From positions 54,472-118,471 of IMG/VR virus record IMGVR_UViG_3300007513_000013: a stretch of 64,000 bases of DNA. The stretch is one strand, 5' to 3'. Position numbers and translations under genes: made by a program. The notes under the pieces were generated by a model. That model ran no database searches. It saw only the letters and a list, made by a program, of their open reading frames with translations, and was not told the origin of the DNA. Origin of the DNA: a virus. The stretch's first letter is position 1. Every line of letters begins with the position of its first letter. Positions 21,522 through 44,431 of this stretch are shown piece by piece.

Positions 21522-21878
21522 ATGAGCTGGAAAAAAAAGAAAAAATATGGAAAGAACGAGCACTATAGTCTTGTAAAAAAGCTGAAAGACGAAGAAAAGA
21601 TTAATGAAAGCTTTGAGTTAATGCTAAATGGATTATCACTGGAAGAAATCATTGGACTCAAGTTAGAATTAGCATCTAAATTCTTCGGAGGGAAATCTTA
21701 TGGCATGCCAATATGGTACTCGATGAGAGAAATTGTACAAGATGCTGTACTAAAATATGCTCTTTCAGCTTGTCGTACCAAGAAAGAGGCTGCTAGATTG
21801 TTGGGCTTAGATCCTAATAATTTCAGAAAATTAATAAAAAAATACGAAACTGAATCTTTTTTTGAAGAAAATACTTGA
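21522..21878 (+). CDS. Fis-type helix-turn-helix protein
   Basis: The 118-aa protein begins with a Lys run (SWKKKKKYGKNEH). It ends with a classical Fis/NtrC-type helix-turn-helix: ALSACRTKKEAARLLGLDPN at about 85-104, followed by FRKLIKKY. Such domains bind DNA as dimers; the upstream part (LSLEEIIGLKLELA) is helical and could dimerise. It is probably a phage transcription regulator or nucleoid-binding protein. Its last codons carry the -35 box of the tmRNA promoter. Confidence 0.75.
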   Translation: MSWKKKKKYGKNEHYSLVKKLKDEEKINESFELMLNGLSLEEIIGLKLELASKFFGGKSYGMPIWYSMREIVQDAVLKYALSACRTKKEAARLLGLDPNNFRKLIKKYETESFFEENT

Positions 21879-21903
21879 CAAAATTAATTATAATGTTTAC
21901 TAT
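21875..21903 (+). promoter_or_regulatory. sigma70 promoter of the tmRNA gene
   Basis: Consensus TTGACA (21875-21880), a 17-bp spacer and TACTAT (21898-21903) place initiation near 21910, just before the mature tmRNA end at 21917. Confidence 0.7.
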
Positions 21904-21906
21904 TTA
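21900..21906 (+). promoter_or_regulatory. CTATTTA element at the tmRNA promoter
   Basis: The recurrent heptamer overlaps the -10 box and ends 10 nt before the tmRNA 5' end, which is where a -10-like element would lie. Confidence 0.4.
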
Positions 21907-21916
21907 ACGTAATTAT

Positions 21917-22347
21917 GGGGGCGAAATGGTTTCGACAGAGTAATGAGATTGTTTTGTGCAAGACTGTGTAAGTATCACAGTATAAATACTTAAACTTTAT
22001 AAATGCCAACGACAACGTTGAATTTGAATACGCACTAGCTGCGTAATCTGAAGTTACTAACGCTTTATTAACGAAGTTAGATCGGGAATACATACGATAT
22101 CGTGTATTAGTTTTCAAGGGTTCAAATAACCTAGCTCAGCTGTGGCTTAACAAGTCTTAAAAGGTCAGAAGGGCGAAAGGGTTATATAGTTACTATATAA
22201 TTTTGGTAACCAGCACCATAAGTTGGTAAAATGGATTCCCCGATGTTTCATCGGGTGGTTGGTACTTAGGTGGTTATTGTACCTATTCTTGTGAATGACA
22301 AAATAATTAATTTATTTTGGACCCGGGTTCGACTCCCGGCGCCTCCA
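21917..22347 (+). ncRNA. ssrA: Phage-encoded transfer-messenger RNA (tmRNA)
   Basis: This is a one-piece tmRNA. The 5' end GGGGGCGAAATGGTTTCGAC and the 3' end CCGGGTTCGACTCCCGG plus CGCCTCC-A form the tRNA-like domain. The 7-bp acceptor stem closes with the G3-U70 wobble pair that alanyl-tRNA synthetase requires. The T-loop TTCGACT is intact. The tag frame (22005-22046) reads A-N-D-N-V-E-F-E-Y-A-L-A-A then TAA; its LAA end is the ClpXP-type degron. CCA is not encoded. tmRNA with SmpB frees stalled ribosomes and tags the product for proteolysis. No smpB gene is in the window, so host SmpB is presumably used. The gene lies between a Fis-like regulator and an FtsZ-like gene. Confidence 0.95.
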
Positions 22348-22404
22348 CTCATATAGTAAGTTTACATCAGAGATAACTACTTATATACAAGGAGAATTAA
22401 ATTC

Positions 22405-23496
22405 ATGAATGAAAACGAAAATGAGAACGAAGGTGGTTGGGACTTACCAGAAGCTCCCCCAGATGATTTTGATTTTGATTTTGTAGAAGCCTATGATGAT
22501 GAGCCTTCTGTAGGTGAAAAAATGCTAGCTGAAAATACAGCACCTAGCGCAATTAATTGTGCTTTTGTTGGTATTGGCGGTGGCGGTGGTAAAATAGCCA
22601 AAGCCTTTTTGGACTTAGGTTTTAATAAGACATTCCTTGTTAACACTACTGAAAAAGATCAGCCAATTGGACTAGAACCAGAAAATTTTCTTTTATTGCC
22701 TGGTGCAGATGGTGTTGGAAAAGATGTTAAGCTTGGAAAACAAATACTGCAAGATAACAGCGCTATGGTAGAAGATGCCCTCAGAACCAGATTCGGCAAA
22801 GTAGATTGGATTTTTGTTTGTGCTGGTGCTGGTGGAGGCACTGGAAGTGCTAGTTACATTTTACACAAAGCAATGACTCGATATTTATCTTCTATAGAAG
22901 CTTCAGGAAAGGTGGTTTATATAGCTAGCAAACCAACCGCGCAAGAGTTGTTAAATCCTACAATTAAATCTAATTGCGCAATGTTCTTGAAAGATATCAG
23001 CAAGCACACTCATATTATTATTGACAATGAAAAGCAATTGCAATTGCTGAGAGGTAAGGTGGGCATGTTGAATATGTATCCAGCGGCTAATAAGAACTTT
23101 GCAAAACTATTGGCACAGGTTCTTAAACTAGCTCATGAGCCTTCACCAATTCAAGTTTTTGATTCTAAAGATCTAGAAAGATGTTTACAAACAAACGGCC
23201 GTATACTTTTAGGAAGTACTGTTGTAAGAGATCCTTCCAAAACAGATTTAGGGGCAACTGTATTTCAGGGCTGTTTAAAATCTTCCCCGTGTCCTCCACC
23301 AGCTAGCAAATCTAAGACTGGTGCACTATTGTTGGTAACCACTCCAGAAATGGCAGATGATCCTTCTATAAGTAATCGATTAGAGGCAGCCTTTTCATAT
23401 GTTGGTGGTCGTTCTGAGACATTATTTTCTGGTGTTTATGTGAGAGAAAGACTACCAGGATTAATTGCCTTAACTTTATTGGGCGGAATGAGTTAA
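22405..23496 (+). CDS. FtsZ/tubulin-like GTPase
   Basis: The 363-aa protein has the tubulin/FtsZ nucleotide-binding signatures. G-loop VGIGGGGGK is at 55-63, the FtsZ-like NTTEKD follows at about 78, and the tubulin signature GAGGGTGS is at 141-148. The T7-loop equivalent VFDSKDL has Asp253 and Asp256 where FtsZ has its catalytic acids. The first 50 residues form an acidic low-complexity tail (Asn/Glu/Asp/Pro), and the FtsZ C-terminal peptide is absent. It could polymerise, as PhuZ and TubZ do, to position phage DNA or act on host division; either is inference. Start ATG 22405 follows AAGGAG. Confidence 0.85.
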   Translation: MNENENENEGGWDLPEAPPDDFDFDFVEAYDDEPSVGEKMLAENTAPSAINCAFVGIGGGGGKIAKAFLDLGFNKTFLVNTTEKDQPIGLEPENFLLLPGADGVGKDVKLGKQILQDNSAMVEDALRTRFGKVDWIFVCAGAGGGTGSASYILHKAMTRYLSSIEASGKVVYIASKPTAQELLNPTIKSNCAMFLKDISKHTHIIIDNEKQLQLLRGKVGMLNMYPAANKNFAKLLAQVLKLAHEPSPIQVFDSKDLERCLQTNGRILLGSTVVRDPSKTDLGATVFQGCLKSSPCPPPASKSKTGALLLVTTPEMADDPSISNRLEAAFSYVGGRSETLFSGVYVRERLPGLIALTLLGGMS

Positions 23497-23963: not shown

Positions 23964-24392
23964 ATGAAAAGTATTGTAAAAGATGTTTTATATTTGCAGC
24001 AAGCATGCGAGAAAATTGATTCAGAAAAAGAGGCTAAAGAAATCGCAGATGAGCTGTTTGAAATATTAAATAAAAATAAAAATGGTGTTGGTCTCGCAGC
24101 AAACCAAATTGGAATAAACAAAGCTGTTTGTGTTGTAAATGTCTGGCGCCCTCTTTGGTTTATGAATCCTAGTTTTATATCTGCCGGTAGTGAAAAAGTC
24201 CATTTTAATGAAGGGTGTTTGTCATTTCCGGACTCTATTATAACTACAGAGAGGTACAGGCACATTTCCGTAACGGCCGATAATCACGAAAAACAACTTT
24301 ATTTTGGACCATGGAATATGTTAGAATGTGTATGTGTTCAACATGAAATATGCCACTTAAATGGTGAAACAATGTTTGATTATAAAATATGA
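23964..24392 (+). CDS. def: Peptide deformylase
   Basis: The 142-aa enzyme has all three deformylase motifs: GVGLAANQIG (41-50), EGCLS (Cys85 metal ligand) and QHEICH (H127, E128, H131). It removes the formyl group from nascent N-terminal methionine in the cytoplasm. It is short because the C-terminal helix of bacterial PDFs is missing, as in other marine phage PDFs. Phage PDFs have been linked to fast turnover of photosystem proteins in cyanophages, but here no photosystem gene is seen. Its neighbours (tmRNA, PhoH) suggest a wider translation-quality role. The start follows the previous stop by 8 bp. Confidence 0.92.
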   Translation: MKSIVKDVLYLQQACEKIDSEKEAKEIADELFEILNKNKNGVGLAANQIGINKAVCVVNVWRPLWFMNPSFISAGSEKVHFNEGCLSFPDSIITTERYRHISVTADNHEKQLYFGPWNMLECVCVQHEICHLNGETMFDYKI

Positions 24393-30342: not shown

Positions 30343-31611
30343 GTGAGCGATAAAAAGATCACCATTTTGACATTGAGCGATCATCCGCTTTCTCCTTCTG
30401 GAGTTGGCACTCAAACGAGAAACATGATTGAGGCAATGCTTGAGACTGGTAAATATAAATTTATAAGCCTAGGCGGGGCGATGAAACACGTCGATTATGA
30501 ACCTAAAAAGGTAGATCCATGGGGAGAAGATTGGGTTATTTTTCCAATCGACGGGTATGGAAATCAAGAAACAATTCGTTCCCTAATCAGAGTTAATAAA
30601 ATAGATATTCTTTGGTTTATGACAGATCCCAGATTTTATGGCTGGCTCTGGTTAATTGAAAATGAAATTAGGCCGCTGATTCCAATGGTCTATTATCACG
30701 TGTGGGACAATTACCCTTATCCAACTTACAATAAACCATTTTATGACTCAAATGACGTTATCGCGACAATATCTAAAGTAACTGACGATATTGTTAAGAC
30801 TGTATCACCAGATGTTGAATCTGTTTATATTCCACACGCAGTGGATGCTAATATTTTTAAAAAACATGATGGTCCCGAAATGGAAAAGTTCAAAACAGAG
30901 GTGTTTAAGGACAACTCTCTAGAGGGTAAATTTATATTCCTGTACAATGGCCGAAATGCAAGAAGAAAACAGACTGGCTCTATGATCTTTTGGTTTAAAG
31001 AGTTTTTAGACAGAGTGGGTCACGACAAAGCTGTTTTTATTATGCATACAGATGTTAAAGACCCGGTTGGCCAAGATCTGGAATATATCATAAGACACTT
31101 AAAATTAACAAATGGAGAAGTTGTATTTTCAACACAGAAATATCCACCGAATGTTTTAGCTAAAATCTATAATATTGCAGATTGTACTCTTTGTTTGTCT
31201 GATGCCGAAGGTTTTGGATTGACCTCTTTGGAGTCTTTAGCATGCGGAACTCCTGTTATTTCAACGTTGACAGGCGGTTTGCAGGAACAAGTAACAGACG
31301 GCAAAGACACTTTTGGAGTGGGAATTGAGCCTAGTACAAAATCTATTATCGGCTCTCAGGATATTCCATGGATTTATGAGGATAGGGTATCGGAAGAAGA
31401 TGTTATAAATGCAATGTTAAAGTTGTACAATATGTCGCAAGAAGAAAGAGACGAACTTGGGGCAAAAGGTACAGCACATGTATTAAAAAATTACAGCTTT
31501 GAAAGGTACGTTGAACAGTGGGATGAATTATTCCAGCGCGTTCATAGTGAAATGGGCTCGTGGGAAAATAGAAAAAATTACAAGTCATGGACTTTAAAAG
31601 AGGTAGTATGA
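30343..31611 (+). CDS. GT4-family glycosyltransferase
   Basis: The 422-aa protein has an N-terminal GT-B half with SPSGVGTQTRNM (16-27) and a C-terminal half with the nucleotide-sugar site DAEGFGLTSLESLACGTPVI (E-x7-E motif). It begins at GTG 30343 after GAGGTAAAC and opens the glycan block. The acceptor and donor are not predictable. Its TGA overlaps the next ATG by 4 bp. Confidence 0.88.
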   Translation: MSDKKITILTLSDHPLSPSGVGTQTRNMIEAMLETGKYKFISLGGAMKHVDYEPKKVDPWGEDWVIFPIDGYGNQETIRSLIRVNKIDILWFMTDPRFYGWLWLIENEIRPLIPMVYYHVWDNYPYPTYNKPFYDSNDVIATISKVTDDIVKTVSPDVESVYIPHAVDANIFKKHDGPEMEKFKTEVFKDNSLEGKFIFLYNGRNARRKQTGSMIFWFKEFLDRVGHDKAVFIMHTDVKDPVGQDLEYIIRHLKLTNGEVVFSTQKYPPNVLAKIYNIADCTLCLSDAEGFGLTSLESLACGTPVISTLTGGLQEQVTDGKDTFGVGIEPSTKSIIGSQDIPWIYEDRVSEEDVINAMLKLYNMSQEERDELGAKGTAHVLKNYSFERYVEQWDELFQRVHSEMGSWENRKNYKSWTLKEVV

Positions 31612-32873
31612 GAAAAAAAGTTTTAGTTAGAGCACCAGCATTGAGCAGAACAGGATATGGTGAGCATGCTCGTTTTGTTTTACGTTCCTTAAGAAAGCAT
31701 GAAGATAAGTTTGACATTTTTTTAGACAACACCAACTGGGGCCAATCCGGCTGGATTTTTCGAGACAATGAAGAAAGACGATGGATAGATACAATTATTG
31801 CAAAAACAATGTTTCACGTGAATAATGATGGCGGCCCAATGGATGTATCTGTACAAGTTACAATACCAAACGAATGGCAACCTTTGGCCCCGGTAAATAT
31901 TGGCGTAACTGCTGGTATTGAAACAACACAGGTCGCACCGCAGTGGGTTGAGCAGTCTTTTGTTGTAGATAAGATTATTACCACTTCCAATCATTCTAAA
32001 CAAGTTTATGAAAACACAACATATGAAGCACAACACAAAGAAACGATGGCGGTTATCAAAGAATTTAGATGTGAGCGGCCAATTGAAGTTGTCCATTATC
32101 CCGTAAAAGATATTGAAAAAGCAGAAATTGATTGTGAACTTGAAACAGACTTTAATTTTTTAGTAGTTGCTCAGTGGGGCCCTAGAAAGAATATTGAAAA
32201 CACAGTTAGGTGGTTTATAGAAGAATTTGTCGACAATTCTAATGTTGGAATGGTGTTAAAGTTGTTTTATAGAAATGGATCTATTATAGATCGGGTCAAT
32301 TTAGAAGAAAATGTAAAAAATCTACTTAACGAATATCCGCAAAGAAAATGCAAAATTTATTTATTACATGGAGATATGAGTGAAGAAGAAATGACCGGCC
32401 TTTATACTCATCCAAAAATTAAGACATTAGTATCTTTGACGCATGGTGAAGGATATGGTCTTCCTTTGTTTGAGGCGGCTTATAACGCACTACCAGTCTT
32501 AGCTCCAGATTGGAGTGGGCATGTCGACTTTTTGTTTAAACCAACAAAAGATAAAAAAGGCAAAATAAAGCAAAAAGCACATTTTGCAAAAGTGGATTAT
32601 GATATCGGCCCGGTTTCCCAAGAAGTATTGTGGCCCGGAGTTCTAGAAAATTATATGATGTGGTGTTACCCAAAGCAGGGTAGTTATAAGATGAAATTAC
32701 GTGAAATCCACAAGGATCACGGCAGGTTCAAATCCCAGGCAAAAAAGCTGCAAAAATGGATTCGAAAGGAATTTTCTGAAGACAAACAATATGAAAAAAT
32801 GGCTAATGCCATTTTGTCTGTTATAGAGAAGGGCGAAACTGCAGAGGAAAAAGCCGTCGTTAGTTATGAATAA
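31608..32873 (+). CDS. GT4-like glycosyltransferase
   Basis: I chose ATG 31608, which overlaps the previous stop by 4 bp. The 421-aa protein starts KKVLVRAPALSRTGYGEHAR and carries a C-terminal donor site HGEGYGLPLFEAAYNALPVL. Both features fit the GT-B fold of GT4 enzymes. It is a second, diverged member next to the first, suggesting successive sugar additions. The end overlaps the next gene by 8 bp. Confidence 0.85.
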   Translation: MRKKVLVRAPALSRTGYGEHARFVLRSLRKHEDKFDIFLDNTNWGQSGWIFRDNEERRWIDTIIAKTMFHVNNDGGPMDVSVQVTIPNEWQPLAPVNIGVTAGIETTQVAPQWVEQSFVVDKIITTSNHSKQVYENTTYEAQHKETMAVIKEFRCERPIEVVHYPVKDIEKAEIDCELETDFNFLVVAQWGPRKNIENTVRWFIEEFVDNSNVGMVLKLFYRNGSIIDRVNLEENVKNLLNEYPQRKCKIYLLHGDMSEEEMTGLYTHPKIKTLVSLTHGEGYGLPLFEAAYNALPVLAPDWSGHVDFLFKPTKDKKGKIKQKAHFAKVDYDIGPVSQEVLWPGVLENYMMWCYPKQGSYKMKLREIHKDHGRFKSQAKKLQKWIRKEFSEDKQYEKMANAILSVIEKGETAEEKAVVSYE

Positions 32874-34470
32874 GATTCTATACATCTCAGATTTTTTTTT
32901 GGACACAATACAAGGCGGCGGAGAACTAGTAGACGATTGTTTAATAAATAATTTAATTGAGCGAGGCTATGATGTTCAAAGAGTGCATTGTGGAAATGCC
33001 ACTCCGGAGTTTATAGATAATAATTCTGCCGCATTTTTTATTGTATCTAATTTTGTCACTCTGTCAGAAGAGTCAAAAGAGTCTTTGGGCGCGCAGTCAT
33101 ATGTGATTTACGAACACGATCACAAATACATAATCGAAAGAAACCCTTCTGCATACAAAAATTTTGAAGTACCATCACATAGATTGGCTAATCTTTCCTT
33201 TTATCGAAACGCAAAAGCCGTCTTTTCTCAATCTAAATTACATTCTGAAGTTATAGGAAAAAATGTAAAGGGAGCAAATGTAATCAATTTAGGCTGCACT
33301 TTGTGGAGCGACGAACATTTGCGCGCCCTAGAAAATAACCTAGATACGCAAAAAGATGATAAGTTTGCTATTGTAAATTCAGAAAACCCTGTTAAAGGTA
33401 GGGATCCTGCAATTGCATATTGCAGAAATAAAAACGTTTCTTTTGATTTAATAGGCTCGAACGATTATAAAGAATTTATCGCACAGTTGGCCGCCAAAAA
33501 AGGCTTAGTTTTCTTTTCACAGGTCTTAGAGAGCTTTTGCCGACTAGTTGTTGAGGCCCGAGTATTGGACTGCACAATTACAACCAATAACTTAAATGGA
33601 TGTGCTTCTGAAGAGTGGTTTAAGAATTATAAAGGCAAGGAATTATTAAATTTTTTAAAGGAAAAGAAAAAGGAAGTCATCGATACAATTATTTCAGTAA
33701 TAAAAGGCGATCACCGTTCTAATAAAAAAGGCGACATCACAGTTATATTGAACTCTTATCGACGTCCATATAATTTAAACATGCAAGTTGAGGCAATAAA
33801 AAACCAAACCATACTTCCAAAAGAAACTTGGCTTTGGGTCAATTCCCATGAAGACAATAAGGGTTGGGACTATTCAAATCTTGGAATAGACAAAGTATTC
33901 AACAATGATCATAATTGGAAATTTTATGGCAGATTTGCTGCAGCCCTTCTGGCAGATACAGAATATGTTGCAGTGTTTGACGATGATACAATTCCGGGAA
34001 AAGAGTGGTTTGAAAACTGTTTAAAGACAATGGAAACCCACGAAGGAATATTAGGAAGCGCCGGTGTAATATTGAATGGCAAACATTACGTTCAGCATAA
34101 TAGGTGCGGCTGGCCCTCTCAAAATAAAGAGGCAACAGAAGTTGATTTAGTTGGTCATGCGTGGTTTTTTAAGCGCGATTGGCTTCAATATTTATGGAAA
34201 GAAAAACCAACAACATGGGACAATGGCGAGGATATACAATTTTCCTATTTAGCTCAGAAATATGGTGATATAAAAACCTACTGTCCACCTCACCCCTTAG
34301 AAAAGCCCGAATTACATGGTTCGATTTTAGGAAATGAGCTAGGCATAGACAATAAAGCAACTTCTACTGATTCTAGTATATCACACGAACGATTTTTTGC
34401 CGAAAGAGACGTCTGTGTACAAACAGCAATAAAAAATGGCTGGAAAACTGTTAATGGAGTTTCGCTGTGA
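32866..34470 (+). CDS. Two-domain glycosyltransferase (GT-B-like half plus GT2 half)
   Basis: The first 280 residues of this 534-aa protein look like a GT-B-type transferase (ISDFFLDTIQGGGELVDDCL start; SENPVKGRDPAI). The C-terminal half begins near residue 287 with a GT2-type nucleotide-binding strand (ITVILNSYRRPYNLNMQVEA). It has a metal-binding FDDD (about 371-374) and HAWFFKRDW, followed by GEDIQFSYL. Two transferase domains in one chain suggest it adds two sugars in turn. The stop overlaps the next gene's GTG. Confidence 0.8.
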   Translation: MNKILYISDFFLDTIQGGGELVDDCLINNLIERGYDVQRVHCGNATPEFIDNNSAAFFIVSNFVTLSEESKESLGAQSYVIYEHDHKYIIERNPSAYKNFEVPSHRLANLSFYRNAKAVFSQSKLHSEVIGKNVKGANVINLGCTLWSDEHLRALENNLDTQKDDKFAIVNSENPVKGRDPAIAYCRNKNVSFDLIGSNDYKEFIAQLAAKKGLVFFSQVLESFCRLVVEARVLDCTITTNNLNGCASEEWFKNYKGKELLNFLKEKKKEVIDTIISVIKGDHRSNKKGDITVILNSYRRPYNLNMQVEAIKNQTILPKETWLWVNSHEDNKGWDYSNLGIDKVFNNDHNWKFYGRFAAALLADTEYVAVFDDDTIPGKEWFENCLKTMETHEGILGSAGVILNGKHYVQHNRCGWPSQNKEATEVDLVGHAWFFKRDWLQYLWKEKPTTWDNGEDIQFSYLAQKYGDIKTYCPPHPLEKPELHGSILGNELGIDNKATSTDSSISHERFFAERDVCVQTAIKNGWKTVNGVSL

Positions 34471-35471
34471 TATTAATAAGTTTCGGAACCAGGCCGGAAT
34501 ATATTAAGCTTAAGCCGATTGTTGATATTTTTAAAAAAAAGAAACAACCCTACAAAATTTTATTCACTGGGCAACACACTAGTTTACTACCCGCAGAAGC
34601 TTCAGTTGAAATAGATTATAAGTTAAACATTAAAGATGGTTCAAATCGACTTGATTCAATCGTTGGCTCTGTCATGAATCAGTCCCATATATGGATTGAA
34701 CAGCTTACGCACGTAATGGTACAAGGAGACACGACTTCTGCTTTTGCGGTAGCATTGGCCGCTTTTCATAGAAAAGTCCCTGTAATACACCTTGAAGCCG
34801 GTCTCAGGACCTATGACAATAATAATCCATACCCAGAAGAATTCAACAGGCAGGCAATTTCTCGTTTGACCAGCATACACCTTTGCCCAACGGAAAATGA
34901 TGCAAATAATTTAAAAAGAGAAAACGCGCAAGGTGAAATACATGTTGTGGGAAATACTGTGTTGGACAATCTACAAAATTTGAAAGTTTCTTATAATAAT
35001 AAAATTTTAATAACAATGCACCGCAGAGAAAATCATGATAAAATAGAAGATTGGTTTTTGGCCTTTAACAACCTTGCGAAATCTTATTTAGAGTATGATT
35101 TTGAGTTTGTTGCTCATCCAAATCCAAACGTACAAAAGCATTTGCACCTATTGGACCATGTTAAGGTGGTGGATCCTATGGAGCATACTGACTTTGTTCG
35201 AGAAGTTGCACAATGCAAGTTTTTAATAACCGACTCTGGTGGGCTACAAGAAGAATCTTCTTTTTTGAGAAAAAGGAGCATTGTTTGCCGAAAAGCCACG
35301 GAAAGAACAGCTGGACTGGGGCATTTTTCAATTTTATGTTATAATCCAAACGAGTTATATGATATGATACCTAGGTACATAAATAATTTTAAAATCAGTA
35401 GTGCGATTAAGTGTCCTTATGGCGATGGCAATTCTGCTGAAAAGATATATAACATTCTAAAATCAAAATGA
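34467..35471 (+). CDS. wecB: UDP-N-acetylglucosamine 2-epimerase
   Basis: The 334-aa protein has family landmarks in order: GTRPEYIKLKP (7-17), HLEAGLRT, PTENDANNL, GNTVLDNL, HRRENHD and DSGGLQEESSF...TERTAGL. It converts UDP-GlcNAc to UDP-ManNAc in the cytoplasm, giving precursor for ManNAc-containing glycans. It is slightly shorter than bacterial WecB (about 370). The GTG start overlaps the previous TGA. Confidence 0.92.
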   Translation: MILISFGTRPEYIKLKPIVDIFKKKKQPYKILFTGQHTSLLPAEASVEIDYKLNIKDGSNRLDSIVGSVMNQSHIWIEQLTHVMVQGDTTSAFAVALAAFHRKVPVIHLEAGLRTYDNNNPYPEEFNRQAISRLTSIHLCPTENDANNLKRENAQGEIHVVGNTVLDNLQNLKVSYNNKILITMHRRENHDKIEDWFLAFNNLAKSYLEYDFEFVAHPNPNVQKHLHLLDHVKVVDPMEHTDFVREVAQCKFLITDSGGLQEESSFLRKRSIVCRKATERTAGLGHFSILCYNPNELYDMIPRYINNFKISSAIKCPYGDGNSAEKIYNILKSK

Positions 35472-36250
35472 CAGACAAATTTGTAAACGACCTATTTTTA
35501 CTTTTAAACAAGCTAAAGAACAATGAACACTTTGCTTTTGTGCGCTTTTCTGACGGAGAAGTCTTTGTTATGCAAAACAAATATTTGAGACTGGGAGAAA
35601 AACAGGTAAACGTTGGTGATTTTGTACATAACTTTGGATATTCAGCAGATGACTTTAAAGAATACATACCTGAGAAACACAGCTTTCTCAAAGACAAATT
35701 AATAGACTCTATCTCGTTTGAAAAAAAGAATTATTTTGTTGGGGCAGGTTGCGCAAATTGTACGTGCGCCATTAGAGAACACATCCCATGGATAAAAGAG
35801 TATTATAAAAACGGCGAAGAGCATTGGACTAGTCCAAACTTGCTTGTTAATTCAAATTATCCGATGTTTGTTGGGCATTATGTGCCTGAATTCAAGAAAC
35901 ATAAGGTTGTTATGATCTGCAGCAAAAATGCTGATCTTACAAGTATGCCTTTTGAAGTAGTGAAAGACTTTAGAGTTGGGAAAAACTGTATAGTCAACGA
36001 TCATCATTTAGAAGATGAGATTAAAGAGTGGATGGAATCTAACTCAATAGAAGATCATGTCTTTTTGTTCTCAGCCAGTAGTTTAAGCGAGGTTTTGATA
36101 CATAAGCTTTTTGATTGGAACGATAAGAACACATATATTGATATTGGAACAACTCTCCACAAATATATGAAATTAGGAATAGAAAGAGATTACCTAAAAG
36201 CCTATTGGAATAATGCTCCTTTGGCGGACATACACAGATCATGCAATTGA
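35468..36250 (+). CDS. GT-D-fold glycosyltransferase-like protein (DUF1792 type)
   Basis: The signature FAFVRFSDGEV (22-32) matches the R-F-x-D-G-E motif of the GT-D fold first seen in DUF1792 enzymes. The rest of the 260-aa protein is alpha/beta with GAGCANCTC (about 93-101) and LFSASSLSEVLI late. Donor and acceptor are unknown. Four-bp overlap with the epimerase and 10-bp overlap with the acetyltransferase gene. Confidence 0.72.
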   Translation: MTDKFVNDLFLLLNKLKNNEHFAFVRFSDGEVFVMQNKYLRLGEKQVNVGDFVHNFGYSADDFKEYIPEKHSFLKDKLIDSISFEKKNYFVGAGCANCTCAIREHIPWIKEYYKNGEEHWTSPNLLVNSNYPMFVGHYVPEFKKHKVVMICSKNADLTSMPFEVVKDFRVGKNCIVNDHHLEDEIKEWMESNSIEDHVFLFSASSLSEVLIHKLFDWNDKNTYIDIGTTLHKYMKLGIERDYLKAYWNNAPLADIHRSCN

Positions 36251-36627
36251 AACTAGTTGAAAATGAACCTAAATACTGGGAATTTATAAGAAATTTAAGA
36301 AATGATTCTGAAGTAAAAAAAGGATTTATACAGCAACAATATATAACGACTGATAATCATAAAAGTTTTATGGAGAATCATAATAAAAATTTTTATATTT
36401 GCCTGGTAGAAGAAAAACCGGCAGGATATGTTGGTCAAATAGATAACGACATAAGAGTTGCAACCTCTCCAGAATTTCAAGGAAAAGGTGTTGGAAAGTT
36501 TATGATTAATACGTTGATGGAAAAGCATCCAAATGCTTTTGCAAAAGTTAAAGTGGAAAACGAAGCGAGTCTGAGGCTTTTTGAAAGTTGCGGATTTAAG
36601 AAACAATATTATATTTTGGAGAAATAA
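36241..36627 (+). CDS. GNAT-family N-acetyltransferase
   Basis: The 128-aa protein has the acetyl-CoA-binding pattern VATSPEFQGKGVGKFMINTL and the closing VKVENEASLRLFESCGFKK, both typical of GNAT enzymes. In this block it most likely acetylates an amino sugar produced by the adjacent aminotransferase. Its stop abuts the next ATG. Confidence 0.88.
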   Translation: MQLKLVENEPKYWEFIRNLRNDSEVKKGFIQQQYITTDNHKSFMENHNKNFYICLVEEKPAGYVGQIDNDIRVATSPEFQGKGVGKFMINTLMEKHPNAFAKVKVENEASLRLFESCGFKKQYYILEK

Positions 36628-37251
36628 ATGCTGCATAACCCTTATAAAATAGTACAGATGTTTGAAGAAGAAGTCGCCCATTACACGGGAGCGCCATATG
36701 CTGTTTCTACAAATAGTTGCACAAATGCTCTGTTTTTAGCATGCAAGTGGAATAAAGTAGAAGGGAAAGAGGTTATAATACCTAAAAGAACCTATTTGTC
36801 CCCTCCTCAATCTATTCTACAAGCTGGCGGAAAACTAATTTTTGAAGACATTAAGTGGGAAGGCACATATCAATTAAAGCCTTTTCCAATTTATGATGCC
36901 GCCAAAAGATTAACATCTAATATGTATATTCCTGGTACATTTATGTGTATTTCTTTTCATATCAAAAAGCACCTTAAAATAGGCAAGGGCGGTATGATAT
37001 TATGTGATAACAAAGAAGCCACAGAATGGCTTAAAGCAAGAAGATACGAGGGCAGAACTGCAGGAATGAAGTATCATGAAGACCAAATTGATGAAGAGGG
37101 CTGGAACATGTATATGACACCCGAACAAGCTGCAAGAGGGTTGACTTTGATGCAGAATTACCCAGAAAACATGCCAGACATTCCAGAAGATCCCCCTTAC
37201 AGGGACTTGACTGAATTTGAATTATTTAAAGATATAGAGGTTAGAGAATGA
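36628..37251 (+). CDS. Shortened DegT/DnrJ/EryC1-type sugar aminotransferase
   Basis: At 207 aa it is about half the usual 370-400. It keeps the N-terminal STNSCTNALF motif (the S-G-T-x-A-L region), PKRTYLSPPQ, YDAAKR (the PLP-contacting Asp) and SFHIKKHLKIGKGG with Lys114 as the likely PLP lysine. The usual 35-residue stretch before YDAAKR and most of the C-terminal domain are gone. It could still be an active minimal transaminase or a binding remnant. The ATGA overlap with the next gene and its intact frame argue against a decaying pseudogene. Confidence 0.78.
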   Translation: MLHNPYKIVQMFEEEVAHYTGAPYAVSTNSCTNALFLACKWNKVEGKEVIIPKRTYLSPPQSILQAGGKLIFEDIKWEGTYQLKPFPIYDAAKRLTSNMYIPGTFMCISFHIKKHLKIGKGGMILCDNKEATEWLKARRYEGRTAGMKYHEDQIDEEGWNMYMTPEQAARGLTLMQNYPENMPDIPEDPPYRDLTEFELFKDIEVRE

Positions 37252-38864
37252 AGATTATAGGAGTTAGCACGGGTCACGATTGTTCATATTGTGTTTTGGA
37301 AGATGGAAGGCCGGTTGTACATGAAGAATGGGAACGTTTTTCCAGAATAAAGGAAAGCGATACTAACGTTTTTGAGTTTTTGGAAGATAGATTAGCTGAT
37401 TACAAAGATACAAAATATGTAACTCATTGGCCCTGCAATCCGAATGGTTGGGAAAATATCTTTAAAGACAAGAAGTTAGCCTCTTTTGAAAAGATGAAGG
37501 AAATGGTCAAGGAAAACGGAGGAGCCTATTATCAATTTGGACACCATCAAAGTCATGCTGCCAATGCTTTCTTTTCAAGCAATCATGATAGGGCACTAAT
37601 ATTGACATTGGATGCTGGTGGTTGGGATTACGGTGATTATGATGAGAACAGTGTTGGAAGGGGAGAAATCCACGACACTTCAGTTACTGTTTGGAGAGGT
37701 GAGAAAAACAAGATACACCCAATTGCAATTCTTTCGATTGAGGATTTAAGCATTGGTTTGGTTTGGCATGATATTCTACCTTCAGTTTTTGGCCTTTCAA
37801 ACGGAACACCAATTGGAAATCAGGCCGGTACTGCCATGGCAATGGCAGCAATGGGAAAAACAGATAAATATGTAGATAAAATTGGCTTTAGCAACAATCA
37901 TCATCGTACAGATTATAAGTACCTTAAAAATGCAGCCGTAGAAAATCCTGATGAATTATACGAAATAGCAAGAGCGCTGCAAACAAACACTGAAGGGCAA
38001 ATCAGGCGCCTGATTAGTTATTATCTAGTGGAAGGGGATGAAAACTTGTGTGTCGCTGGCGGAGTTGCATTAAATTGTGTATCTATGGGTAAACTATTTG
38101 ATTGGTTTCCACAGCTTAAATCTGTTTATGTGCCTCCTGTGCCTTATGATGCGGGTTTATCTATTGGCTCCGCTCAATATCTTTATCATCACGTGCTAGA
38201 TAATCCAAGAATCACCTGGGAAGATAATTTTACACCTTATTTAGGAGTAACCTATGAATTGAGCGAAGTAAAAGAGGCGCTGGAACAGCACAAAGATGAG
38301 GTCACCTTCTCAGAAGCTTCTGATTCTGAAGTGCTGGAGTTACTGGATAAACAGAATATTGTTGCAGTTTTTGGCGGCCCCTCGGAATCTGGCCGACGCG
38401 CCCTAGGCAACAGAAGCATTTTGGCAGATCCTCGCAACGCTAATATGAAGGATATAATTAATGAAAAGGTCAAACATCGACAGTCGTTCCGTCCATTTGC
38501 GCCATCTATTTTAAGAGAAGAAGTAAAAAATTGGTTTGTGCACGATGTTGATAGTCCATATATGAATTTTGCTTTGAGATATCAAGAACATGCATTAGAA
38601 AAAGTACCGGCCGTTGTGCACTTTAATAACACTGGCCGTTTACAAACAGTAACAGAAAGCGATAACAATTGGTATTACAACTTTATAAAACAATGGCAAG
38701 AAAAGACTGGAGTGCCGATTTTATTAAACACCAGCTTTAATGATCGAGAGCCAATTGTTGAAACACCAGAACATGCACTTAAATGTTTCATGAAAACCAA
38801 AATAGACTATTTGTATTTTACCGATTATGGCATTTTGGTGCGCAAGAACGAAGAAGAGAAATGA
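37248..38864 (+). CDS. O-carbamoyltransferase (NodU/CmcH/TobZ family)
   Basis: In the 538-aa protein the N-terminal ASKHA-like domain begins IIGVSTGHDCSYCVLEDG and has GHHQSHAANAFF with metal-binding His, then TLDAGGWDYGD. The C-terminal YrdC-like part has AGGVALNC, GGPSESGRRALGNRSILADP and SFRPFAPSIL. Relatives transfer carbamoyl from carbamoyl phosphate, through carbamoyl-adenylate, to sugar hydroxyls. Here it would decorate the glycan made by the block. ATG overlaps the previous TGA. Confidence 0.9.
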   Translation: MKIIGVSTGHDCSYCVLEDGRPVVHEEWERFSRIKESDTNVFEFLEDRLADYKDTKYVTHWPCNPNGWENIFKDKKLASFEKMKEMVKENGGAYYQFGHHQSHAANAFFSSNHDRALILTLDAGGWDYGDYDENSVGRGEIHDTSVTVWRGEKNKIHPIAILSIEDLSIGLVWHDILPSVFGLSNGTPIGNQAGTAMAMAAMGKTDKYVDKIGFSNNHHRTDYKYLKNAAVENPDELYEIARALQTNTEGQIRRLISYYLVEGDENLCVAGGVALNCVSMGKLFDWFPQLKSVYVPPVPYDAGLSIGSAQYLYHHVLDNPRITWEDNFTPYLGVTYELSEVKEALEQHKDEVTFSEASDSEVLELLDKQNIVAVFGGPSESGRRALGNRSILADPRNANMKDIINEKVKHRQSFRPFAPSILREEVKNWFVHDVDSPYMNFALRYQEHALEKVPAVVHFNNTGRLQTVTESDNNWYYNFIKQWQEKTGVPILLNTSFNDREPIVETPEHALKCFMKTKIDYLYFTDYGILVRKNEEEK

Positions 38865-39739
38865 TCACGTTTTTAGAATTAGGAAAACATGGCCGCCTAG
38901 GCAATCAACTTTTTCAATATGCCGCACTGAAAGGCATTGCTCTAAGAAATAACTACGAGTGTAAAATTCCAGATCCGGCAGAGTGCGAGTGGCACGGTCA
39001 AAAATGTCTATTAAAGGAATTTAATATAGAGAGCGAATATTTAACCTTACAAGATAGAGAAAAAATTGAATATATGGCAGTAGAGCCAAGCCCCCATTCT
39101 TTTTACGAGCAAATGCTGGCAATACCTGACAACACCAATCTTCATGGCTATTTTCAGTCGACATACTATTTTAAAGGATATGAAGAGCAGATTCGCAAAG
39201 AACTGACCCCTAAAAAAGAATATATTGATTTTGCCAAAGAGTATCTTGAACCACTAAAGACAGACGGCAGTGCCATAGTTAGTGTTCATTTACGCAGAGG
39301 GGACATTACAGATGGTACGAATGCAAGTGAGAAGTACTTAAATTTTTATGGAAAAGATGATATATTTAGTAAAGAAAGCGGCTATGGTAGATATATTAAC
39401 AAGGCCTTGGAAAATTTCAAAGATGTGAAAGTAAAATATCTAGTCTTTTCCGGAGGTTCGCGCACAGGAGACGATGCCGCCGACATTGCATGGGCTAAGA
39501 ACAATTTTGCAAAAGATAAATTTAAAGTATCAGACACCAATGATCCAATGAAAGATTTGGCATTGATTATGTCATGCGATCACAACATCACATGTCACAT
39601 GACGAGTTTCGGTTGGTGGGGGGCATATTTAAATTTTAATCCGGATAAAATTGTTATTGCACCTAGGAATTACTTTTATGATATGCCTAGCGCATACGTA
39701 AGGCCCGGCTTCTTTCCAGAAAATTGGAGCTTGACCTAA
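38861..39739 (+). CDS. GT11-family (alpha-1,2-fucosyltransferase-like) glycosyltransferase
   Basis: I chose ATG 38861, which overlaps the carbamoyltransferase stop by 4 bp. The 292-aa enzyme has GRLGNQLFQYAAL near the start, VSVHLRRGDI and the TCHMTSFGWWGAYL region, all GT11 landmarks. GT11 enzymes move L-fucose from GDP-fucose. No GDP-fucose pathway genes are in the window, but GDP-mannose 3,5-epimerase is, so GDP-L-galactose could be the donor; that is inference. Confidence 0.85.
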   Translation: MITFLELGKHGRLGNQLFQYAALKGIALRNNYECKIPDPAECEWHGQKCLLKEFNIESEYLTLQDREKIEYMAVEPSPHSFYEQMLAIPDNTNLHGYFQSTYYFKGYEEQIRKELTPKKEYIDFAKEYLEPLKTDGSAIVSVHLRRGDITDGTNASEKYLNFYGKDDIFSKESGYGRYINKALENFKDVKVKYLVFSGGSRTGDDAADIAWAKNNFAKDKFKVSDTNDPMKDLALIMSCDHNITCHMTSFGWWGAYLNFNPDKIVIAPRNYFYDMPSAYVRPGFFPENWSLT

Positions 39740-39753
39740 AGGGGATATGAAAA

Positions 39754-40587
39754 GTGGAGAATAAAAAAATAAAATTAATTAAAGAATACTGGAACAGACG
39801 GCCGTGCAACATAAAACACTCTTTAAAGGAGTTTGGCACCCAAGAGTATTTTGACGAAGTGGAAGAAAGAAAATATTTTGTTGAACCCCACATTCTAGAG
39901 TTTGCTGAATTTCAAAAATGGAAAGGAAAAGAGGTTTTAGAGATTGGTTGTGGAATAGGGACTGATAGTGTGAATTTTGCTCGAAATGGTGCAAACCTAA
40001 CTGTTGTTGAACTCTCCGAAAAGAGTCTAGATGTATGTAAAAAACGATTTGGCGTTTACGGATTAAAAGCTGATTTTATCTTGGGAAATGCAGAAAAGCT
40101 CTCTTCTTTATTGCCGGTGGGAAAAAAGTATGATTTAGTTTATGCGTTTGGCGTAATCCACCATACAAACAAACCAGATAGAGTAGTTAAGGAAATCAAG
40201 AAAGTTTTAAAGCCCCAGTCGGAGCTAAGAATAATGTTGTATTCTAGGTTTAGTTTTAAATTGTTTGATTTTATGCATCAAAATAATATTTGGGACTTTA
40301 GCAAAACGAGAGAAACGATACAATATTTTGCCGAAGCTCAATTGGGTTGCCCTAGGGCTTTAACTTATACTTTTAAAGAAGCAAGAGAACTATTAAGTGA
40401 TTTTGATATCATTTCTATCAAGAAGGATCATATCTTTCCTTACGATATATCTGAATATATTAATCATAATTATGAGATTGCTGATTCCTTTAAAAATATC
40501 ACTAATGAAGATTTTAGACAACTGTGTGGCGAGTTGGGCTGGCACACTTTAATCAAAGCAAAGCCTAAAAACATGCCTGGAGAATGA
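39754..40587 (+). CDS. SAM-dependent methyltransferase
   Basis: The 277-aa protein has the Rossmann methyltransferase pattern: VLEIGCGIGTDSVNFARNGA (motif I), LTVVELSEKSL, DFILGNAEKL and YDLVYAFGVIHH. The start is GTG 39754 after GGGGATATG. It likely O-methylates a sugar in the block. No substrate information can be read. Confidence 0.88.
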   Translation: MENKKIKLIKEYWNRRPCNIKHSLKEFGTQEYFDEVEERKYFVEPHILEFAEFQKWKGKEVLEIGCGIGTDSVNFARNGANLTVVELSEKSLDVCKKRFGVYGLKADFILGNAEKLSSLLPVGKKYDLVYAFGVIHHTNKPDRVVKEIKKVLKPQSELRIMLYSRFSFKLFDFMHQNNIWDFSKTRETIQYFAEAQLGCPRALTYTFKEARELLSDFDIISIKKDHIFPYDISEYINHNYEIADSFKNITNEDFRQLCGELGWHTLIKAKPKNMPGE

Positions 40588-40591
40588 TTTA

Positions 40592-41365
40592 ATGAGCTTT
40601 TTCACACAAGACATTTCTCAATGGTTAGAAAAATATCTAGAGGAGAGTTGTTTATCAACATTTGTTGTGGGAGTATCTGGTGGTGTTGATTCGGCTGTTG
40701 TGTCTACTTTGTGCGCACTGACAGGTAAGCCTACAGTGGTGCTTAATATACCTGTAAATTCAAAACACGAGAACACTGCTCTTTCCACTACTCAATGTGA
40801 GTGGTTAGCAGCAAATTATGACAATGTTACGGTACATGAGATAGATCTAAGCAATACATATAAAGAGTTTCAAGAAGCTGTTTTAAAGTCAATTGATATC
40901 AATGGGTTAGCCATGGCCAATACTAAGTCGCGTTTACGTATGGTGTTGTTGTATTATTTTGCCACAACGTTAAATGGTTTAGTGGTTGGAACTGGAAACA
41001 AAGTTGAAGATTTTGGTGTAGGCTTTTATACCAAATACGGTGACGGAGGAGTTGATGTAAGTCCAATTGCAGATCTTACCAAAACTCAAGTGCGCAATCT
41101 AGCGAAAGAACTTAACATACCGGCTGAAATTATTGAAGCTCCTCCGACTGATGGCCTTTGGGAAGATAGTCGCACCGACGAAGAACAAATTGGCGCTTCA
41201 TACGAGGAATTGGAGTGGGCTATGGATTATATTGATAATAATAGACAAACATCGTTATCAACAAGAGAGAGACATGTTTTAGACATATTTGTTAGTTATA
41301 GAACTAAAAATGCTCATAAAATGAATCCCATACCGGTATATCAATGTAGAGGAGAGAAAGGTTGA
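40592..41365 (+). CDS. nadE: NH3-dependent NAD+ synthetase
   Basis: The 257-aa enzyme has the PP-loop SGGVDS (29-34) and the conserved GTGNKVEDFGVGFYTKYGDG and DVSPIADLTKTQV stretches. It also has the late PPTDGLWEDSRTDEEQIG region. It amidates nicotinic-acid adenine dinucleotide to NAD+ using ammonia and ATP. There is no glutaminase domain. Several NAD-dependent enzymes (nucleotide-sugar dehydrogenase, epimerase, dehydratase, GAPDH) are encoded nearby. The stop overlaps the TTG start of the next gene. Confidence 0.9.
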   Translation: MSFFTQDISQWLEKYLEESCLSTFVVGVSGGVDSAVVSTLCALTGKPTVVLNIPVNSKHENTALSTTQCEWLAANYDNVTVHEIDLSNTYKEFQEAVLKSIDINGLAMANTKSRLRMVLLYYFATTLNGLVVGTGNKVEDFGVGFYTKYGDGGVDVSPIADLTKTQVRNLAKELNIPAEIIEAPPTDGLWEDSRTDEEQIGASYEELEWAMDYIDNNRQTSLSTRERHVLDIFVSYRTKNAHKMNPIPVYQCRGEKG

Positions 41366-42468
41366 ACATTTCAGTAGTAGGTATTGGAAAATTGGGTCTT
41401 TGTTTTTCTCTTACGTTAGAAAAAGCAGGCTATAATGTTGTGGGCGTTGATATCAATGAGAATTATGTAGCTCAAATTAATCAAAAAACACTTCACAGTT
41501 CTGAAGCGGGAGTCACAGCTGTCCTAAAAAAATCTCAAAACTTTAAAGCAACAACATCGCTTAACGAAGCACTAGAACACTCTAATATTATTTTTGTAGT
41601 CGTTGCAACCCCTTCGTTAGAAAGCGGGAGATATGATCATTCACAGGTTGATTCTTTGGTCGATAGATTAAATGATATTGGTCCGGTGAAAGAACAGAAA
41701 CATTTGATAGTGTGCTGTACTGTTATGCCGGGTTATTGTGACTCCATAAAAGAAAAACTAAACAGTTTAAATTATACAGTGAGTTACAATCCAGAATTTA
41801 TTGCACAGGGTACAATTTTACGAGATCAGTCGCGACCCGATATGATATTGATCGGAGAAGCCTCAGAAAAAGTGGGTGACATTTTAGAGGAAATTTATAC
41901 AAAGCATACAATCAGCAGTCCGCGCATATGTAGAATGTCTCCTAAAGAGGCAGAAATCACTAAAATAGCTTTAAATTGTTTTCTGACAACAAAAATAGCA
42001 TATGCCAACATGGTAGGGGATATTGTTATTGCCGCAAATGGCGACCCGCATAAAGTTCTTAAGGCTATTGGTGAGGATTCCCGGATTGGTAATAAATATT
42101 TAGGCTATGGATATGGCTACGGGGGACCTTGTTTTCCTCGTGATAACCGTGCTTTGGCTGTGTTTGCTGAAGATGTGGGAGTGGAAGCATTGGTAAGTGT
42201 TGCCTCTGATGAAAGCAACAAAAAGCACTTACAAAACCAAATTCAACAATATATTAGCAAGAACCCGAAAGATAAAGAGTTGGTTTTTGATTATATAACC
42301 TATAAGCCTGAGTCTACGCTATTGGTAGAATCACAACAGCTTGAATATGCCGTTGGTCTGGCAAGAGAAGGTTACAAAGTCCGAATTAGAGAGAGAAAAG
42401 AAGTGATAGAAGAACTTAAAAAAGATTATGGTAACTTGTTTACTTACGAGGAGAGAGAAAATGACTAA
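41362..42468 (+). CDS. UDP-glucose/UDP-ManNAc 6-dehydrogenase family protein
   Basis: In the 368-aa protein the NAD-binding start NISVVGIGKLGLCFSLTLEK leads to VVVATPS, PEFIAQGTILRD and EAEITKIALNCFLTTKIAYAN. The catalytic Cys lies in GGPCFPRD. The family oxidises C6 of UDP-glucose, UDP-ManNAc or GDP-mannose to the uronate. The C-terminal domain is short compared with about 390-450 aa. Because a UDP-GlcNAc 2-epimerase is encoded upstream, UDP-ManNAc is a plausible substrate. TTG 41362 follows AGAGGAGAGAAAGG. Confidence 0.87.
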   Translation: MNISVVGIGKLGLCFSLTLEKAGYNVVGVDINENYVAQINQKTLHSSEAGVTAVLKKSQNFKATTSLNEALEHSNIIFVVVATPSLESGRYDHSQVDSLVDRLNDIGPVKEQKHLIVCCTVMPGYCDSIKEKLNSLNYTVSYNPEFIAQGTILRDQSRPDMILIGEASEKVGDILEEIYTKHTISSPRICRMSPKEAEITKIALNCFLTTKIAYANMVGDIVIAANGDPHKVLKAIGEDSRIGNKYLGYGYGYGGPCFPRDNRALAVFAEDVGVEALVSVASDESNKKHLQNQIQQYISKNPKDKELVFDYITYKPESTLLVESQQLEYAVGLAREGYKVRIRERKEVIEELKKDYGNLFTYEEREND

Positions 42469-43465
42469 GAGAGCGTTAGTGTGCGGTGCAGGCGGATTTA
42501 TCGGAGGCCACATGGCAAAGCGCCTTAAAGATGAGGGCTGGTGGGTACGAGGCGTAGATTTAAAGCCCAATGAATTCATGAACATGGAAGAAATCTGTGA
42601 TGAATTCTTTGTTGGGGATCTTCGCGATCCTCTTTTCACCAGTGTAATGGTTTTTGCCCCTACTCAAACTTCTGAAAAAGACGCAGAAAATGCATTTGAT
42701 GTTATATATCAGTTTGCAGCGGATATGGGTGGTGCAGGTTTTATTTTCACGGGAGAGAACGATGCAGATATTATGCATAATTCAGCCCAAATTAATCTTA
42801 ATATTGCTCATGAGGCAACCAAAAAGAGTGTAAAGAAAGTGTTTTATTCCTCCTCTGCTTGTATGTATCCAGAATATAATCAAATGGATCCGGACAACCC
42901 TAAATGCTCAGAAGACTCGGCATATCCCGCTGCACCAGATAGTGAATATGGCTGGGAAAAGTTATTTAGCGAGAGGCTTTATTTGGCATTTGCTAAAAAT
43001 TATGGTTTAAATGTAAGGATCGCTCGCTACCATAATATTTTTGGACCTCAAGGTACGTGGGACGGCGGAAGAGAAAAAGCACCTGCAGCGTTTTGTCGCA
43101 AAGCTGCAAAAGCAGATGATGGTACTTCTATTGAGGTTTGGGGCGATGGAACAAGAACACGCTCCTTTTTATATATTGATGAGTGTATTGAGGCCACGCG
43201 TAGGTTTGTTGACTCTGATTTTATAGGCCCAGTAAACATAGGTTCAGAAGAGATGATTACCATTCAGGATTTTGCTAATATGGCTATTGATATATCTGGA
43301 AAAAAACTAACTATCAATAATGTTGATGGACCTTTGGGGGTCCATGGGAGAAATTCTGATAATAAGCTTTTTCAAGAAAAAGTTGGCTGGAAGCCTTTCC
43401 AGCCTCTACGCGCAGGGATGGAAAAGACTTATAAATGGATTTTAGAACAGATAAAGGAAGGGTAA
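42461..43465 (+). CDS. GDP-mannose 3,5-epimerase
   Basis: I chose ATG 42461, overlapping the previous gene by 8 bp. The 334-aa SDR protein has GAGGFIGGHMAKRLK, YQFAADMGGAGFI, SSACMYPE (catalytic Cys), YGWEK, and HNIFGPQGTWDGGREKAPAA with the catalytic Lys, then NIGSEEM. These match plant GDP-mannose 3,5-epimerase almost position for position. The reaction gives GDP-L-galactose or GDP-L-gulose. This enzyme is known mainly from plants and some bacteria. Confidence 0.92.
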   Translation: MTKRALVCGAGGFIGGHMAKRLKDEGWWVRGVDLKPNEFMNMEEICDEFFVGDLRDPLFTSVMVFAPTQTSEKDAENAFDVIYQFAADMGGAGFIFTGENDADIMHNSAQINLNIAHEATKKSVKKVFYSSSACMYPEYNQMDPDNPKCSEDSAYPAAPDSEYGWEKLFSERLYLAFAKNYGLNVRIARYHNIFGPQGTWDGGREKAPAAFCRKAAKADDGTSIEVWGDGTRTRSFLYIDECIEATRRFVDSDFIGPVNIGSEEMITIQDFANMAIDISGKKLTINNVDGPLGVHGRNSDNKLFQEKVGWKPFQPLRAGMEKTYKWILEQIKEG

Positions 43466-44431
43466 GTGAAACTAGTAACAATAACCGGATGTTTGGGGCT
43501 AATTGGCTCATATGTCACGAGAAGGTGTTTAGAGAAGGGTTGGAAAGTTTATGGAATTGATAGCTGTACATATGCGGCAAATATGGATTTTATTGACGAG
43601 TTTAAAGAAAGTGAAAACTTTACGTTTGTCAAAGAAGACATCGCGACTTTAAAATATTTACCCGATTGCGATTATGTTATCAATGTTGCAGCAGAGTCTC
43701 ATGTTGGGAACAGCATCATCGACAGCACAGACTTTATAACATCTAATGTTGTTGGGGTTAAAAATTTATTAGATCTTATTCGAAGAAAACCCAGCAATGT
43801 GGACAGCCAACCGATATTCTTTCACTTTAGTACAGATGAAGTTTATGGAGATATTACTAGCGGCTTCCATACAGAAAACGACCTTCTTAAACCAAGTAAT
43901 CCATATTCAGCTTCAAAGGCTGCCGCAGATATGTTTATTTTAGCTTGGGCAAGAACTTACGGTATTGATTATATCATTCTAAGGCCAACAAATAATTACG
44001 GTCTAGGACAATATCCAGAAAAACTAATACCAGTGTCAACAAAACTTTTAACAAGAAATAAAAAAATAAGATTGCACAATGAGGGCACCCCAATAAGGAA
44101 TTGGTTGCATGCAGATGACACCGCACAAGCAGTTATAACCATTGTTCAATCCGGCGTTAAAAACGAAATATACAACGTTGCTGGAAGTTTTGAACAAAAA
44201 AACATAGAAACAGTTAAAAAAGTTATCAATTGCTATTATAATAGTAATCATAGTAAGTTGCATGAAGACTGGACAAACTTGATTGATTTGTCGTATGTGC
44301 GAGAAGGTCAAGACGTGAGATATGCCTTGGATGACTCAAAACTAAAGAAACTTGGTTGGAGTGCAAAAAAGAACTTCGATGAAGAAATAAACAAAATAGT
44401 TCAATACTATAAAAATAATTTTAAATGGTAG
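43466..44431 (+). CDS. dTDP-glucose 4,6-dehydratase-like SDR protein
   Basis: The 321-aa SDR protein shows TITGCLGLIGSYVTRR (NAD loop), NVAAESHVGNSI, HFSTDEVYGD, PYSASKAAADM (Tyr/Lys catalytic pair), RPTNNYGLGQYPEKLIP and RNWLHADDTAQA. These are RmlB landmarks for 4,6-dehydration of a nucleotide sugar to the 4-keto-6-deoxy form, the substrate for a DegT aminotransferase. GTG 43466 directly follows the previous TAA. Confidence 0.88.
   Translation: MKLVTITGCLGLIGSYVTRRCLEKGWKVYGIDSCTYAANMDFIDEFKESENFTFVKEDIATLKYLPDCDYVINVAAESHVGNSIIDSTDFITSNVVGVKNLLDLIRRKPSNVDSQPIFFHFSTDEVYGDITSGFHTENDLLKPSNPYSASKAAADMFILAWARTYGIDYIILRPTNNYGLGQYPEKLIPVSTKLLTRNKKIRLHNEGTPIRNWLHADDTAQAVITIVQSGVKNEIYNVAGSFEQKNIETVKKVINCYYNSNHSKLHEDWTNLIDLSYVREGQDVRYALDDSKLKKLGWSAKKNFDEEINKIVQYYKNNFKW

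Follow-up and report, generated by a model that had tools for sequence, protein, structure and literature searches.

A phage-encoded one-piece tmRNA gene with exchangeable modules in its PK3/PK4 region

The stretch of DNA analysed here (the window; 64,000 nucleotides, positions 54,472 to 118,471 of the 118,471 bp IMG/VR virus record IMGVR_UViG_3300007513_000013) originates from an uncultivated, probably marine phage and contains phage-type genes for PhoH, a peptide deformylase, an exonuclease and a baseplate wedge protein. Between an open reading frame for a Fis-type helix-turn-helix (HTH) protein and a gene for an FtsZ/tubulin-like GTPase it carries a one-piece tmRNA (ssrA) gene (Table 1), which matches the covariance model RF00023 with an E-value of 3e-40 and a score far above the gathering threshold of 47 bits, the sole RNA family above threshold in the window (cmscan). 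An earlier note had proposed, from the letters alone, a complete phage-encoded tmRNA and had named a covariance-model search as the check; this search and the presence of all listed parts (tRNA-like ends, G3-U70 pair, T-loop and tag) confirm the proposal. The interval then given, 21875–22347, extends from the −35 box of a promoter-like site to the discriminator A73, the mature RNA starting at 21917. ARAGORN reported no gene for the tmRNA region and nothing in the whole window, so that the gene is identified by the covariance model and by comparison with relatives; the miss is probably due to the unusual 3′ half. With 434 nt the RNA exceeds the size range of 230–400 nt quoted for tmRNAs (PMC3968760). 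The order of its parts (acceptor 5′ strand, tag, acceptor 3′ strand) is the standard one and not the circularly permuted one of RF04321, a family whose only matches are pieces truncated at the ends of the stretch. The window gene is a real phage tmRNA gene.

The protein encoded downstream matches FtsZ chains (E 2e-8, phmmer) and scores just below the cut-off of 33 bits for PF00091 (32.1 bits, E 1.8e-7). It contains the GGGTGS signature, belongs to a type found in large phages and, at E 1e-5, matches none of 50,697 phage records. A peptide deformylase gene lies close to this gene and the tmRNA (23964–24392). More distant parts of the window encode a 714-aa protein with MopE-type putative metal-binding repeats (PF11617; 8719–10863) and a block of glycosyltransferases, UDP-GlcNAc 2-epimerase, Nol-like carbamoyltransferase, NAD synthetase, UDP-glucose dehydrogenase and nucleotide-sugar epimerases (30343–44431). 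ARAGORN detected no tRNA genes in the window; one related contig (L334) has three, Arg-tct, Leu-taa and Met-cat, at 43–1748, far from its tmRNA.

Table 1. Coordinates of the tmRNA gene, its parts and its surroundings in the window
Feature	Position	Strand	Description	Basis
HTH gene	21522–21878	+	upstream ORF, Fis-type helix-turn-helix (HTH_8)	PF02954, 23.4 bits (cut-off 22)
Promoter-like site	21875–21903	+	sigma70-type, TTGACA-17-TACTAT; −35 box overlaps stop codon of HTH gene	10/12 consensus positions
tmRNA (ssrA) gene	21917–22350	+	one-piece; discriminator A at 22347; CCA not encoded	RF00023, 105.6 bits
Acceptor 5′ strand	21917–21923	+	GGGGGCG, pairs with CGCCTCC (22340–22346), including G3-U70	sequence
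Helix H2, 5′ strands	21947–21962	+	partners 22299–22308 and 22288–22292	sequence
PK1	21963–21992	+	ACTGTG/CACAGT and TAAGTAT/ATACTTA	helices with compensatory changes among relatives
Tag frame	22005–22046	+	ANDNVEFEYALAA, then TAA; GCC as resume codon	sequence
PK2	22049–22080	+	TGAAGT/GCTTTA and CTAAC/GTTAG	compensatory changes in relatives
Module C	22084–22175	+	helices 22087–22092/22103–22108 and 22118–22122/22128–22132	common to L312, L327, L332, L211, L330
Short hairpin	22183–22199	+	TATATAG/CTATATA, before module B	sequence
Module B	22205–22288	+	three hairpins at PK3/PK4 position	R1 model, 90.2 bits
Module B helices		+	i 22210–22214/22222–22226; ii 22239–22245/22249–22255; iii 22261–22265/22279–22283	
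T-arm	22323–22339	+	CCGGG TTCGACT CCCGG, TTCGA-type loop	sequence
FtsZ-like gene	22405–23496	+	FtsZ/tubulin-like GTPase, 363 aa, 57 nt downstream of tmRNA	PF00091, phmmer, synteny

The tRNA-like domain is complete, with an intact acceptor stem of 7 bp followed by the discriminator A; the CCA end is absent from the gene, and ACTC stands in its place. The tag frame, with an alanine resume codon, a stop codon and a hydrophobic C-terminus, specifies 13 residues. Of the four pseudoknots of the canonical ring, PK1 and PK2 are intact, and the PK3/PK4 region is replaced by module C followed by the ca. 80-nt module B, the helices of both modules covarying. A broken pseudoknot structure had been named in advance as evidence against a tmRNA; the replacement of PK3/PK4 by other structured modules, which the earlier note had overlooked, does not exclude membership because known tmRNAs differ in how many pseudoknots they contain (PMC3968760).

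Relatives were gathered via the downstream FtsZ-like protein, which yielded 48 loci in viral contigs, and a scan with the tag pattern added many more. Among the 48 records with a related FtsZ-like gene, most of which are fragments, 30 yielded a tmRNA match, which exceeds the cut-off in 29. The comparison set comprised 51 distinct one-piece viral tmRNAs. All 51 retain G3-U70, while both partners vary in the acceptor pairs 4, 5 and 6. Pairing within the acceptor was a condition for inclusion in the script and so cannot count as independent evidence, unlike the G-U at position 3, where any standard pair would have passed. The invariant G3-U70 together with the compensatory changes in the neighbouring pairs makes it probable that selection maintains the gene as a working tmRNA. 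The CCA end is present in 36 of the 51 genes and absent from 15. In most relatives with an ANDN tag whose locus extends far enough, an HTH homologue precedes the tmRNA by 1–320 nt on the same strand; the 3′ neighbour is often an FtsZ-like gene, and the order HTH, tmRNA, FtsZ-like is often conserved. These observations bear on the view that the gene is passenger DNA devoid of selected function, derived from a host ssrA that was picked up by integration or imprecise excision. Integration into ssrA genes is indeed common, and fragments of ssrA are known from prophages (PMC9004378, PMC11915505). The compensatory evolution across dozens of phages, the fixed G3-U70, the conserved neighbours, the retention of a full gene instead of a fragment and the lack of a bacterial donor with this tag in one-piece form among the matches listed render this origin extremely improbable.

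The tags of the relatives vary in their middle part, and nearly all end with ALAA (one with RLAA). Resume codon, stop codon and ALAA end are conserved in almost all relatives, which argues against a role as decoy or competitor that binds SmpB, EF-Tu or stalled ribosomes and disturbs host trans-translation instead of tagging, since a decoy would not need the tag frame. There is a precedent in the truncated, tag-less tmRNA of phage DS6A, which inhibits the endogenous tmRNA in E. coli (Mao et al., as cited in PMC11915505); for the window gene we consider such a role very unlikely and regard the RNA as probably functional. A related tmRNA with the tag ANNNYHYDNVALAA was noted in L014, L015, L048 and L049, and also in L076–L079. 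It retains the acceptor, G3-U70 and CCA, has the T-loop GGCAGTA, not one of TTCGA type, and contains TAGTTTCGAC in place of TGGTTTCGAC in the D-loop region.

The sigma70-type promoter proposed earlier is plausible, the designation “consensus” being slightly generous for a match at 10 of 12 positions. A single site is weak evidence because the region holds 11 promoter-like sites compared to 6.5 expected from shuffles. At the same place, eight of the 51 relatives reach a match of 11/12, a value that single-base shuffles attained 7 times in 2040 trials. Elsewhere among the relatives the end of the HTH gene is 1–10 nt away from the tmRNA, so that read-through transcription from the HTH gene into the tmRNA also appears likely.

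Between the tag stop codon and the 3′ strand of H2 the relatives differ by whole blocks. The window tmRNA has module C and then B, L312 has C and then block A (a short hairpin block present in many relatives), L006 and L007 have A and then B, and blocks D, E or F occur in other relatives. Calls of block E within module-B sequences were disregarded, as a loose pattern had produced too many of them there. In 18 sequences of module B, 93.6% of the cells are paired, compared to 44% or less when the partner strand is slid; 7 of the 15 pairs change on both sides, and helix iii is paired in 90 of 90 cells. Module C is paired to 98.2% versus at most 47% when slid, in only five sequences, among which four of the six pairs of its first helix show double changes. 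Neither module matched a separate Rfam family, and every occurrence with readable flanks lies inside a viral tmRNA, some copies at contig ends having no flanks. An AGCC/GGCU helix enclosing module B was rejected because shuffles do equally well, and a resemblance between module B and block E, seen in four sub-threshold matches inside tmRNAs, is too weak to claim a link. L004 encodes an FtsZ-like protein 88% identical to that of the window and nevertheless contains only block A, which indicates that the modules turn over faster than the neighbouring gene. As read from these alignments, the PK3/PK4 region is a site of interchangeable modules, and this constitutes the new point of the analysis. 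It fits the finding that PK2–4 of E. coli tmRNA can be interchanged or replaced with little effect (Nameki 2000, as cited in PMC3968760 and PMC1168896) and the statement in the latter two sources that PK2–4 mainly serve folding and maturation.

The modules might alternatively regulate a functional tmRNA, for instance as a binding site for a protein of phage or host, as a ligand sensor or through a preference for certain ribosomes. Loops and linkers of module B (ACC, UUAAG, AAUGGA and GG[CU]GGU) are near-invariant beyond the needs of the helices, loop i (ACC/GCC) and loop iii (GGYGG) could form a kissing contact, and a glutamine-riboswitch-like element has been described in another marine phage tmRNA gene (PMC9004378). 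However, L004 dispenses with module B despite its close relationship, module B corresponds to no separate Rfam family, and the putative kissing contact is ambiguous in register. A regulatory role is therefore rather unlikely in our estimation. Quite doubtful is also the more specific reading of module B as a new selected RNA domain of three hairpins and a kissing contact, exchanged as a cassette and endowed with an added function; if true, module B might recruit a phage protein or favour certain ribosomes.

Phage tmRNAs as such are already known from isolate phages, Streptomyces phages and huge phages; one survey reported them in about 2.3% of isolate phages (PMC9004378). With the one-piece bacterial tmRNA (RF00023, E. 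coli ssrA) the window RNA shares the G3-U70 acceptor, T-arm, H2, PK1, PK2, an internal tag ending with ALAA and the one-piece layout. It differs in modules C and B replacing PK3/PK4, the 13-residue tag, the CCA end not being encoded and the phage location beside HTH and FtsZ-like genes. The tmRNAs of Streptomyces phages (StarPlatinum, Yaboi and others) are likewise phage-encoded and have a 13-residue tag ending with YALAA, which reads ANSNVASAYALAA in some records. However, the hosts and phages are unrelated, and most of the tmRNA sequence is unaligned, the weak DNA match consisting of short pieces that cover 23% of the query. The two-piece tmRNAs of Alphaproteobacteria and of marine phages such as Melnitz (RF04321; PMC9004378) share the tag type AN[DN]N...[DE][FY]ALAA; in contrast, the window gene is not permuted, and the permuted relatives recovered by the same tag scan constitute a set of their own. 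The tag pattern also matched alphaproteobacterial permuted tmRNAs in bacterial genome contigs among the matches listed, a likeness that does not identify the host. Tag pattern and module B gave no match in 398 Pseudomonadota genomes, the model search, run with strict filters and without a positive control, being weak evidence. The tmRNA region had no match in isolate phages at E 1e-5. Huge phages (PMC7162821) resemble the present one as large phages with tmRNA and peptide deformylase and are reported to carry SmpB as well; in contrast, no phage-encoded SmpB was found in 32 records of our set, most of them fragments, and the phage tmRNA presumably relies on host SmpB.

Gene, structure, conservation and module exchange are established here, and the anatomy supports ordinary trans-translation with host AlaRS, EF-Tu, SmpB and proteases as a possible function. 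We consider it highly probable that the RNA is a working one-piece tmRNA used during infection, in which modules B and C act as folding and spacing elements. In a corresponding scenario, a primary transcript would start at the promoter of the tmRNA gene itself and/or result from read-through of the HTH gene, both of its ends would be trimmed and host enzymes would add CCA. The G3-U70 pair should then permit charging by host AlaRS and, together with host SmpB and EF-Tu, the tmRNA may enter ribosomes stalled on broken mRNAs. The tag A-ANDNVEFEYALAA would be added to the unfinished product, whose ALAA end would direct it to host ClpXP-type proteases. Ribosomes might in this way stay available to the benefit of the phage while host and phage mRNAs are degraded, and the supply of tmRNA would be independent of the host's own ssrA gene. 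Previously, a phage tmRNA has been proposed to maintain the hijacked machinery or to tag host proteins (PMC9004378). The earlier note had further suggested that the gene may be expressed early and that its RNA could take over from host ssrA once the host genome is broken down or alter which proteins are degraded. Modules B and C would take the place of PK3 and PK4 in the folding and spacing of the pseudoknot ring, and phages could exchange modules freely because the ring tolerates substitution.

The finding reveals one-piece tmRNAs as a family that is widespread among uncultivated large phages and largely missing from isolate collections. Selection appears to keep PK1, PK2, the tag and the tRNA-like domain, whereas the remainder of the ring is exchanged, which represents a natural counterpart to the laboratory finding of PK2–4 interchangeability. 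The family thereby offers ready variants for asking what purpose the ring serves and why phages keep a ribosome-rescue RNA of their own.
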